Of a stretch of 64,000 bases of DNA, positions 6,862-62,921 are shown one piece after another. The translations under genes were made by a program, and so were the position numbers. Within the stretch, counting starts at the first letter, position 1, and each line of letters begins with the position of its first letter. The DNA comes from Verrucomicrobia bacterium LW23 (lineage in GTDB: Bacteria; Verrucomicrobiota; Verrucomicrobiia; Methylacidiphilales; UBA1321). The DNA is taken from assembly GCA_003054695.1 (NCBI GenBank), contig QAZA01000056.1:372001-436000 (forward strand). Reading direction: 5' to 3'. The notes under the pieces were generated by a model. That model was not told the origin of the DNA. It searched no databases and was given only the letters and a program-made list of their open reading frames with translations.

Positions 6862-8361
6862 TTACGCCGGCAAAAACTTCTCTTCCAGATAGTCGCAGAA
6901 GTATCTGGCGTTTGTCGACTCGCCGGTGGCCAGGCGCATCAGCTCCTGCGGGGTGTAGCGGCGGCCGTGGGCGTGGACGTTGGTGTTGAGCCACTTGCGC
7001 AGGCCCGCGTAGTGCCCGGACGCGATTTCCCCTGCCAGCGCGGGTACCTGGGTGTTGGCGGCGTGGAAGAGCTGGGCGGCGTTGAGAGTGCCCAGCGTGT
7101 AGGTGGGGAAGTAGCCGAAGCCGCCGCTGCACCAGTGGATGTCCTGCAGGCAGCCTTTGCCGTCGTCGGGCACTTTGAGGCCGAACAATTCCTCAAAGCG
7201 CGTATTCCACGCGTCGGGCAGGTCGGCTACGGAGAGCTTGCCTTCAATCAGGGCGTGCTCCATTTCAAAGCGTAGCAGAATGTGGAGGTTGTAGGTCACT
7301 TCGTCCGCGTCCACGCGGATAAAGCTGGGCTCCACCCGGTTGACAGCCAGCAAAAAGCTATCCAGCGGCACGGCGGCCACGCTGGGGAAAAACTCGATGG
7401 CGGTGGGGTACCAGTGCCGCCAGAAGGCGGCGCTGCGGCCCAGCTGGTTCTCCCACAGGCGTGATTGCGACTCGTGGATGCCGAGCGACACGGCCTCGCC
7501 CAGCGGTTGCGCCACGCGATCGGCAGGCAGGCCCTGGTCGTACATGGCGTGGCCGCACTCGTGCATCACCCCGAAAAGGGAGCTGGTGAAGTTCGTTTCG
7601 TCGTACCGCGTGGTAATGCGCACGTCGCGCGGGCCGGGGGAGCAGCAGAACGGGTGCGGCGAGACGTCCATGCGCCCGGCGTTAAAGTCAAAGCCGATCG
7701 CCTCTGAGATGACGCGGTTGAGTTTGGCTTGCTGGGCCTCCGGGTAGTTGCCCTTCAGCAGGTCCGCCGGTGTTGAGGCCGTGCGGGCGATAGCGGCGGG
7801 CAGCAGGGTGGCGATGCGTTGCTGCAGGTCCGCAAACAGGGGGCGCAGGTCGGCGGTGCGGGCGTCCTGCTCGTAGGAGTCCAGGAGTGTGTCGTAGCGG
7901 CTGGGGCAGGTGGCCCAGGCGTCGGCTTTCTCACGGCACAGCTCCACAATGCGGGTTAGTTTGGGTTGAAACAGTGCAAAGTTGGCGGTGCGGCGCGCTT
8001 CCAGCCATGCCTCGCGGGCCAGGCTGGAGGTGTGTGCCAGCTCCTGCACCAGGCGGGCGGGCAGTTTTAGCTGGCGGTCGTAGTCGCGGCGCCACTCGCG
8101 GATATTGGGGCCGGCGTCGATGTCCCCCTGCGCGCCGCCTTCCTCGCACTCCTGCAGCCACTCGCCAATCTCTGGTGCGGTGCCTTTGCTGTGCACAAGG
8201 CCTACCAGGTAGGAGAGCTGCTCGGCCCGGTACTCGACGCCGCGGGGGGGCAGGTTGGTGTCCTCGTCCCACTGCAGCAGGTTAACAACGTTGGCGATCA
8301 GGCCCAGCTCCTGGGAGTGGGCCAGCAGCTTGCGGTAGGCGTCCTTGGCGCTGGCGTTCAT
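6862..8361 (-). CDS. Carboxypeptidase Taq (M32 metallopeptidase)
   Basis: The start MNASAKDAYRKLLAHSQELG gives 499 residues, the normal M32 length; an open frame continues upstream without family similarity. The zinc-binding motif is MHECGHAMYDQGLP with His267 and His271. Other M32 signatures are NLLQWDEDTNLPPRG near the N-terminus and DVRITTRYDETNF before the zinc site. These cytoplasmic enzymes remove C-terminal residues from peptides with broad specificity. It is convergent with the SGNH gene (29 bases between stops) and divergent from the alpha/beta hydrolase. Confidence 0.95.
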   Translation of the reverse strand: MNASAKDAYRKLLAHSQELGLIANVVNLLQWDEDTNLPPRGVEYRAEQLSYLVGLVHSKGTAPEIGEWLQECEEGGAQGDIDAGPNIREWRRDYDRQLKLPARLVQELAHTSSLAREAWLEARRTANFALFQPKLTRIVELCREKADAWATCPSRYDTLLDSYEQDARTADLRPLFADLQQRIATLLPAAIARTASTPADLLKGNYPEAQQAKLNRVISEAIGFDFNAGRMDVSPHPFCCSPGPRDVRITTRYDETNFTSSLFGVMHECGHAMYDQGLPADRVAQPLGEAVSLGIHESQSRLWENQLGRSAAFWRHWYPTAIEFFPSVAAVPLDSFLLAVNRVEPSFIRVDADEVTYNLHILLRFEMEHALIEGKLSVADLPDAWNTRFEELFGLKVPDDGKGCLQDIHWCSGGFGYFPTYTLGTLNAAQLFHAANTQVPALAGEIASGHYAGLRKWLNTNVHAHGRRYTPQELMRLATGESTNARYFCDYLEEKFLPA

Positions 8362-8649
8362 AGCGTAGGCGGTAGTCTCCGGCACAGGGTTCCGGCCGGC
8401 GAGCGGGGCATTCGGCGCAGCGGCGCCCATCTCCCCGATGGGCATGGCCGTACCCGGCACCGGCGGAAAAATCCGTGCGGAATGCACAGTATGGCGGCGG
8501 AATGAACTATTGGCAACCCCGCACTTTTGAAACACAAGCGGACGCGCCCGGTAGCCCGTGCGGGACGGGACCCCAGAAGGGATCGCGACTTTTTGACGCA
8601 TGGCACTTTCCACCATGCCAGCGGATCAAGTATGGTGATAGGCACACGT

Positions 8650-58400: not shown

Positions 58401-59617
58401 TGAGAGTGGATGGGGAACGTATGCGATGCGTGCTGGGCGAGAGAAAGCGCCGCGCCGGCTCCGCTGCACATTGAGGGGCAGCAGTGCGGGCAGGGCGCAT
58501 CAATCTAGCATAAAAGTACGATGTGGCGGTGTCCCTTGAACAGCATTTTCGCACGCCATGGCCATCCGCCACGGGGATTTAACATTGCGCGGGTGGGGGG
58601 GCGGGCATGGGGATTTGTGGCTATGCCCTCCCAACCTCCTCGGCCATGCTATACTCTGGGCGCAATGCGCCAAAAGTGGGATTTGGACCCATCTGCGAAA
58701 AGCACGCACGTATGCACCACACAGAAAACTCCGTCCGGGGTGTATGCTCTGCCCCAGGCGGAGTTATTTCTGCACTGCACGTTGCGCTTTAGTTTGCTTT
58801 GCAGTTTCCATCTCCTGCTTCATTACCGCAGGGTGGAAAGGGGGTAGAGGAAACGGGGCGTCCTTATCAGGTGTATGGATTGCGTCCTCGCTTACACCGT
58901 TTCCTCCTTAAATTGGCGTCCTGTCGTAAAGAGGTAAGGCTTGGCCGCCTTCGTTCATTACTGACGTTGCTGCCACCTATTTCTCCGTGCTTATCTTTTC
59001 TTTTCAGCCTTAGGGAGATTTATGTGGCATTTTTTTGCACTGACCCTGTCGACCCCATGCTATGTTTACACACCACTTGCTGAGGAGACCTGATATGTCC
59101 TGCAACTGACAACTAGCGTGAACATCAGGCGGCCAAGTCTTAAGGTGAATATAACCCGTATACAGGCTGGCGCAACTGGTAATCTGCAGAAAATAGCAAA
59201 AAAGTTATGCTCTTTTCTTCATCCAATAAAATGCATTAAGCATAGATAGTGCCATTCTCAAGTCGCGCGAAGCGAAAGTGCGATCTCCGGCCAGTTATAG
59301 TCAAGTTTTTCTCCCTCACTCCGTTCCTCCCTTTATACTTCGCGCTCTTTGCGTCCTTCGTGCGTCCTTCGCGCCCTTAGCGTGAAACAATCGCAACGTG
59401 GCGCAACCCCTTTTCGTACATCGGTAACGTATGGGCATTTACGCGCTCAGGACGCAAAGAGCGCGAAGGAGGGAGGGGAGACAGTGATAAATTGTCGGGG
59501 GGCGGTAGCTCAGGGCTAATCGCATGCTGGAATTTTGGCGCGGGTTATGCTTTATTTCTGACTTCCCGCTCCGTATCCCCGGCTCCGGGCCGGCCTTTTC
59601 TTTGCAATTCCTTTTCC
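58401..59617. other. Long gene-free region with tandem hairpins and an inverted repeat
   Basis: About 1.2 kb with no convincing gene. Visible structure: AACTCCG...CGGAGTT with inner GGGG/CCCC (58727-58765); TTTCC...GGAAA with inner CCTGC/GCAGG (about 58805-58838); a perfect 10-bp pair GAGGAAACGG/CCGTTTCCTC (58847-58906); three GCGTCCT copies at about 58858, 58882 and 58916; and the inverted repeat at 59338-59468. On the minus strand the first hairpin is followed by TTTT, a possible attenuator or terminator upstream of carA. Confidence 0.55.
59338..59468. repeat. Perfect 20-bp inverted repeat with 91-base interior
   Basis: Arms at 59338-59357 and 59449-59468 are exact reverse complements; both include CGCTCTTTGCGTCC or its complement. 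The interior repeats related GCGTCCTTCG motifs. It lies between carA (minus) and the beta-CASP nuclease gene (plus). Confidence 0.85.
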
Positions 59618-62371: not shown

Positions 62372-62503
62372 CCCCCTCTATCCCCACTTAGCGGCTTCGT
62401 CCCCCTTCGTGCGAAACAATCTGATTCAGTCGCTGTAAAGGCTTCGGATCGCAGATAGTTTCGCACGAAGGGGGACGAAGCCGCTAAGTGGGGATAGAGG
62501 GGG
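62372..62503. repeat. Perfect 46-bp inverted repeat between convergent genes
   Basis: Left arm 62372-62417 and right arm 62458-62503 are identical reverse complements over all 46 bases, around a 40-base interior (62418-62457). It lies 12 bases after the ribBA stop and 19 bases before the stop of the minus-strand GxxExxY gene. Arm ends are CCCCCTCTAT and GCGAAAC. No open frame of note inside. It may be a bidirectional terminator or a hairpin mobile element. Confidence 0.95.
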
Positions 62504-62522: not shown

Positions 62523-62921
62523 TTAAGGATGGGAACGAGGTCTCCAATGATTGTTGATCAGGCGATGAACATTTCCTTTTAGCAGTGCGGCCCCAAAATT
62601 AATAAGCAGGCCAAGGCGTATGTTGGAAAGCCTGATGTAGGTGATTGTTTGCTTTTTATGAACGCTCAGTAGTTGCTCTACAGATTTGAGCTCAATAAGT
62701 ACCAGGTTTTCAACAATCAGATCAGCTCTGTAGGCATCTACAAAGCTTCGGTTACCATAGGTAAAGGAAATAGGCTTTTGTGTTTCCACATAGTATCCTT
62801 GCCGTGTGAGCTCGTCGGCCAGCACGAGTTCGTAAACGGACTCGAGCAATCCTGGGCCCAACTCACAGTGGATTTCGTATGATTTTTGAATGATACGGCT
62901 CGCAATGTGTTCTTCGTCCAT
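62523..62921 (-). CDS. GxxExxY protein (PD-(D/E)XK-like)
   Basis: A 132-residue protein with the signature ELGPGLLESVYELVL (G-x2-E-x2-Y) near the N-terminus and the nuclease-like core RADLIVENLVLIELKSVEQLL (D...E-x-K). It ends YIRLSNIRLGLLINFGAALLKGN. GxxExxY proteins are frequent singletons of unknown role. It is noticeably less GC-rich than its neighbours and sits 10 bases downstream of nuoD on the same strand, so it looks like an insertion into the nuo operon. Confidence 0.9.
   Translation of the reverse strand: MDEEHIASRIIQKSYEIHCELGPGLLESVYELVLADELTRQGYYVETQKPISFTYGNRSFVDAYRADLIVENLVLIELKSVEQLLSVHKKQTITYIRLSNIRLGLLINFGAALLKGNVHRLINNHWRPRSHP

Follow-up and report, generated by a model that had tools for sequence, protein, structure and literature searches.

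A dispersed palindrome and an adjacent GxxExxY gene, a putative RecB/Cas4-like nuclease, as a likely REPIN/RAYT-like system in Verrucomicrobia bacterium LW23

Behind nuoD in Verrucomicrobia bacterium LW23, in the 64,000-nt stretch of contig QAZA01000056.1 analysed here (the window), a small gene of unusual composition stands beside a perfect inverted repeat of exceptional length, and the question raised by this locus is whether the two belong together and, if so, which of them serves the other. The features concerned are the following.

62372..62417, plus strand: left arm, 46 nt, a perfect reverse complement of its partner on the right (from the sequence)
62418..62457, no strand: interior (loop) of the palindrome, 40 nt, with pairing continued through its first and last 6 nt but for one mismatch
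62458..62503, plus strand: right arm of the palindrome, 46 nt, with three CRCNAAG-like units (from the sequence)
62464-62470, 62474-62480 and 62482-62488: the right-arm units CACGAAG, GACGAAG and CGCTAAG, with a mirror set in the left arm
62523..62921, minus strand: GxxExxY gene, 132 aa, predicted nuclease of the PD-(D/E)XK superfamily (profiles, alignment and fold model)
59329..59477, no strand: second palindrome, 37-nt arms, 81% complementary, fitting the repeat grammar given below with one substitution

The perfect 46-bp repeat around a 40-base interior described in the original prediction was borne out when the arms were compared, and an inverted-repeat search extends them to 52 nt at 98%. 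Among inverted repeats with arms no more than 300 bp apart it is the longest in the window, the runner-up reaching 37 nt at 81%. Folded as RNA, the palindrome has a computed energy of -115.5 kcal/mol, as against -45.5 (sd 4.0) for shuffled sequences (z -17.4). It lies between two convergent genes, on the 3' side of the GxxExxY gene only.

The gene itself is assigned to its family by profile scores far above the cut-offs (128.2 bits to TIGR04256, cut-off 35; 121.9 bits to PF13366/PDDEXK_3, cut-off 22). Its composition is indeed distinct, as had been proposed: the GC content is 44.9% compared with 61.1% for the window, and values equally low occur in 19 of 1273 sliding windows of 399 bp. It starts 10 bp from the nuoD stop (62932) and is the last gene before the convergent ribBA. 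In this genome nuoD forms the 3' portion of a 688-aa nuoCD open reading frame (L226 4933-6999), whereas nuoC and nuoD are separate in relative G002 (L228). The earlier description of the gene as inserted in the nuo operon thus holds for its position directly behind nuoD and is less well founded as regards the simple interruption of an intact operon, because the nuo cluster is arranged otherwise in the one relative inspected (nuoD, ribBA and the GxxExxY gene were identified by profile, and nuoM, nuoN and the gene order of the relative were named by eye from lists of open reading frames).

A whole-genome search of both strands places the window palindrome in at least 41 positions, its own included; this count was obtained by merging 86 search rows by hand and is a lower bound, 40 of 85 first-look candidates having been scored. 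The original prediction was to be given up if the repeat were single-copy in the genome or were found in relatives without the gene; besides the multiple copies just described, no match at E 0.001 was seen in 39 relatives (own genome excluded). Both arms are paired in 35 copies of the analysed set (two L044 rows and 6 single-arm hits being left out), so the family consists of inverted pairs at high copy number. In these 35 copies arms differ on average by 5.2 positions within a copy and by 7.7 between copies, a separation reached in 0 of 5000 permutations. Along with three others, the window copy comes nearest to the family consensus, and among the rows compared it is one of two with fully identical arms. 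One copy of this family (L044 ~1961-2121) is interrupted by a small palindrome (TTAGACCAATTCGC...GCGAATTGGTCTTA) that has TTA at either edge; the same small palindrome is also found beside the gene at L032 (~1308-1475), and perhaps represents another mobile family with a 3-bp duplication.

The genome contains four GxxExxY genes, and nearly all palindrome copies stand without one; in the dispersed copies inspected there is no room for a gene. The check for such genes near copies, which had been proposed at the outset, shows that all four adjoin multi-copy palindromes, each of the other three having a family of its own (72, 80 and 74 rows in genome searches for L031, L032 and L033). At L031 a single family occupies both sides of the gene, and a genome search with either flank gives the other as its best match; at L032 the flanks are likewise mutual best matches of one family, with a second type of palindrome lying between on one side; at L033 the palindrome is on the right, and on the left there is one arm of that kind. 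For comparison, with about 40 copies in 6.6 Mb, simple arithmetic gives a chance of ~0.3% per gene for adjacency within 200 bp. Different palindrome families also cluster in the same stretches of the genome (G000:C45:545740-546036 and similar).

Alignment of 42 GxxExxY proteins shows that G22, G24, E27, Y30, D67, Q91, G104, L106, N108 and F109 are invariant and that E77, K79 and Y95 are nearly so (at least 90%), a pattern that we take to match the D...ExK...QxxxY nuclease site. The window protein has both the GxxExxY motif and the D...ExK active-site residues, and the L032 protein has altered residues at the ExK position of the others. A structure model of the window protein (pLDDT 94.5, pTM 0.88) finds as its best solved match in Foldseek 4ic1 (SSO0001; E 7e-4), presumably a Cas4 protein, followed by AddAB, MGME1 and phage-type exonucleases. 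In VIA-align the match to 4ic1 has a Z of 9.2 (rmsd 4.1 over 102 residues), the next row has 8.1, and Hjc (6.3) and the XisH-type 2okf (5.4) stand lower, middling Z values being common. We therefore regard the protein, with moderate confidence, as having a RecB/Cas4-like PD-(D/E)XK fold and as a putative nuclease. By sequence, a single solved relative was matched (E 0.47), and matches in PHROGs were weak (best E 0.0065). A phage origin was considered and set aside, as the window protein has no match in the phage collection; relatives of a Sphingomonas GxxExxY protein occur in 8 plasmid records.

The association is not confined to this genome. Eighty GxxExxY loci were kept from a scan of named genomes. 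Six of them had too little sequence at one end; among the other 74, a repeat common to both flanks (score of at least 25) was seen in 35, as against 6 of 444 positions obtained by shifting within these loci. Read inward from each side, the repeat in most loci follows the grammar TCACGCAAAG-N-CGCAAAG-N-CGCAAAG, with changes specific to each family. For 65 of the 74 genes such a triple unit is found no farther than 150 bp away, compared with 1.5% of 1675 controls, the grammar having been learnt on the same loci, and it points inward on both sides in 25 loci and in 0 controls. With one substitution allowed, the grammar also matches the palindrome arm in the window; of 1500 stretches of 130 bp drawn at random from the window, 4 match at this level. 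Among 29 loci of the window's order that were unused for learning, 14 contain the grammar, versus 1.6% of 305 controls. As a universal rule the regular expression was rejected, since the other 15 validation loci fail it and other unit types were found there; most failing loci prove, in a sequence-blind search, to have other units in the same layout (e.g., ACGGAATTA, ACAGGATTA and CATGAAG), and the repeat of the L033 gene and the left palindrome at L032 lie outside the expression even with three substitutions. The sequence-blind search detects inverted flank repeats with a score of at least 16 in 53 of 75 loci (the 80 less 5 dropped) and 28 of 33 further ones, i.e., in 81 of 108, as against 9 of 1623 shifted controls; the remaining 27 score below 16. 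Within the 72 repeats with a score of at least 18, internal identity is 46% at lag 8, 33% at lag 9 and 33% at lag 10 over a background of 22-27%. Across bacterial phyla, then, inverted repeats border GxxExxY genes, usually with three tandem 7-9-bp units per side. In two species of Sphingomonas the arrangement repeat-gene-repeat lies between fabD-like and fabG-like genes, as named from reading of open reading frames (L117, L127 ~7965-8425).

The sequence of the repeat goes with that of the protein. Over the 81 loci with a score of at least 16 (thus leaving out the 27 of 108 below it), repeat similarity falls as protein distance grows (Mantel r -0.56, 0 of 2000 permutations), and the correlation persists when pairs of at least 60% identity are removed (r -0.50, 0 of 2000 permutations); in this test the repeats of minus-strand loci were kept in contig orientation with both sides compared, and the proteins were re-oriented. 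For 12 pairs of genes from the same genome the repeat similarity is 0.16-0.32, compared with a mean of 0.35; sharing a host thus does not make repeats more similar, and it is the gene that they follow.

A closer comparison is offered by three genomes of one genus, in which G004 and G006 have one GxxExxY gene each and G002 has no match to the family. In G004 this gene separates nuoE from nuoF and is framed by two identical 32-nt repeats. Matches to the G004-type repeat number 56+59 (115) in G004, 71+71 in G006 and 1+1 (2) in G002, and the reversed pattern gives 0 in all; the pattern requires 9-bp spacing, and low counts for G005 and G010, where the third unit is spaced 8 bp, are uninformative. 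In this genus the palindromes are therefore abundant only in the two genomes that hold a GxxExxY gene. Sequence identity between G002 and G004, measured at two nuo loci, is 95-96%. From 20 G004 palindromes the flanks of 14 were searched in G002, where all 14 were found and 12 aligned on both sides, and the palindrome is absent at all 12; between the aligned flanks lie 9-39 bp in 8 of the 12 and 74-352 bp of other sequence in the remaining 4, with no target duplication visible by eye. Clean insertion is not proven by these sites, because the short intergenic sequences differ too much. Inspection by eye of the nuoE/F junction shows gene-length stretches bounded by such repeats in G006, G008, G007, G010 and G005; in G003 a palindrome without a gene is present, G011 has nested repeats, and G002, G001, G009 and G000 lack such a repeat at this position. 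Since counterparts of the G004 gene thus occupy the same junction, G002 may have lost the gene and its palindromes rather than always having lacked them. The loops of the G004 palindromes are mostly unrelated (21 of 190 pairs score at least 16), while the repeats differ on average by 0.6 of 26 bases, a combination that simple copying of whole elements leaves unexplained. The ends of these palindromes read TTTTTG...CAAAAA or TTTTAG...CTAAAA, and are mostly matched within a copy (L245-L264).

Taken together, these results make it likely that the window contains a gene-adjacent copy of a dispersed palindrome along with its probable partner, a small RecB/Cas4-like GxxExxY nuclease, in a REPIN/RAYT-like system whose cutting and movement we infer. 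The original prediction of a mobile hairpin with a nuclease passenger is upheld insofar as hairpin and gene form one unit, on evidence from outside the window, and is not upheld as to the role of passenger: the roles are probably reversed, with the putative nuclease as the engine that spreads the hairpins. In the mechanism that we envisage, the nuclease would recognise its own triple-unit repeat, probably as a hairpin or cruciform, and would cut at or near the ends of the palindrome; host repair might then copy or paste the released palindrome into intergenic DNA, leaving no long duplication of the target, much as RAYTs do for REPINs. The perfect arms of the window copy would fit recent copying or arm-by-arm homogenisation.

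Three other readings were weighed against this one. The window hairpin could be an oversized transcription terminator, in keeping with its position between convergent genes and its very stable fold. However, no run of T follows either arm (as judged by eye), some 40 other copies exist in the genome, and the arms far exceed the size of a terminator, as the original prediction had also argued; this reading is very improbable, although a secondary terminator effect is possible. A second reading, in which the palindromes are miniature elements moved by a DDE or HUH (RAYT) transposase encoded elsewhere and GxxExxY genes merely hitch-hike between two of them, gains from the presence of 5 Y1_Tnp matches in the genome, two of which (L242, L243) have long inverted repeats of their own, an arrangement resembling the TIRtrons described in passages of PMC3733652. 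Yet palindromes of the tested families are absent from the 1.5-kb flanks of all 5 Y1_Tnp loci, for which reason a RAYT was rejected as the mover, and the adjoining repeats go with the GxxExxY protein across phyla. The target-site duplication by which a MITE would be recognised was not found in consistent form in 35 copies of the window family or at 28 GxxExxY gene loci. We consider the hitch-hiking account unlikely.

In a third reading, which we hold equally unlikely, the nuclease belongs to the host or its defences, and the palindromes are sites that it binds for regulation or protection and that selection, as opposed to movement, maintains. Such an account would accord with the fact that several related genomes have GxxExxY at one and the same place, the nuoE/F junction, which indicates that the gene can be inherited vertically, and with a weak PADLOC match to an RT-associated PDDEXK protein (E 0.0034). 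Against it, the palindromes differ within a sister pair that is ~95% identical where compared, a change too fast for stable host sites, and the repeats flank the GxxExxY genes themselves in a family-specific manner.

If the reading of the nuclease as the engine is carried beyond this genome, GxxExxY nucleases would drive unrecognised, phylum-spanning REPIN-like mobile systems, in which every such small RecB/Cas4-like enzyme recognises a code particular to it, made up of three tandem 7-9-mers, and multiplies matching palindromes in its host, gene and code diversifying together; many unexplained repeats of the types CACGCAAAG-CGCAAAG, ACACGGAG, ACAGGATTA and ACGGAATTA would be their products. 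We lean towards this generalisation by a little more than an even chance. If it is true, it would provide a function for a widespread uncharacterised nuclease family and an origin for many dispersed palindromic repeats across bacterial phyla, and it would mean that an unrelated enzyme has also come to drive REPIN-like dispersal, with a pairing of enzyme and code that can be tested directly in vitro.

In the literature searched (open-access articles, preprints excluded), GxxExxY receives passing mentions only, and none of the repeat unit strings was found. Of known enzymes, Cas4, AddB and lambda-type exonucleases are alike in being the best solved fold matches and in sharing the residues of what we take to be the D...ExK...QxxxY motif; they are unlike in that the GxxExxY protein has only 132 aa, and the fold matches are moderate. 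The nearest printed precedent found is the Thiomargarita hupL MITE, for which passages of PMC4853749 suggest derivation from an element with a YhgA-type PD-(D/E)XK_2 endonuclease; as described there, it differs in protein family (PF12784 as opposed to PF13366 here), in having 10-bp direct and 19-bp inverted repeats, and in being described from one genome. TIRtrons, in which according to passages of PMC3733652 a small RAYT-like gene lies between long terminal inverted repeats, some of them also dispersed as families, are similar in having one small gene between inverted repeats, but their enzyme belongs to another superfamily; the same passages describe CGTC REPs without a dedicated transposase. 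The REP/REPIN-RAYT systems are a close parallel: there, too, palindromes are scattered through the genome and stand next to a nuclease-type gene, a genome has several types, each served by an enzyme of its own, copy number goes with the presence of the gene, and the two arms co-vary. Passages of PMC8049555 and PMC3686654 describe RAYTs as present in one copy, passed on vertically and linked to how abundant REPINs are, and those of PMC3116915 report compensatory changes between REPIN arms. Unlike these systems, in which the enzyme is a Y1 HUH transposase and the repeat a GTAG-tagged stem-loop of 20-40 bp, the enzyme here is of the PD-(D/E)XK type and the arms consist of three tandem 7-9-mers; on reading the 46-nt window arms, neither a GTAG nor a CGTC tag was present at either end. 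Since the enzyme is not that of a RAYT, the GxxExxY system would work like REPIN/RAYT and not be a member of it, and the analysis as a whole suggests that GxxExxY-repeat systems are a little-noticed kind of self-spreading DNA, with an enzyme unlike those known to spread such hairpins.
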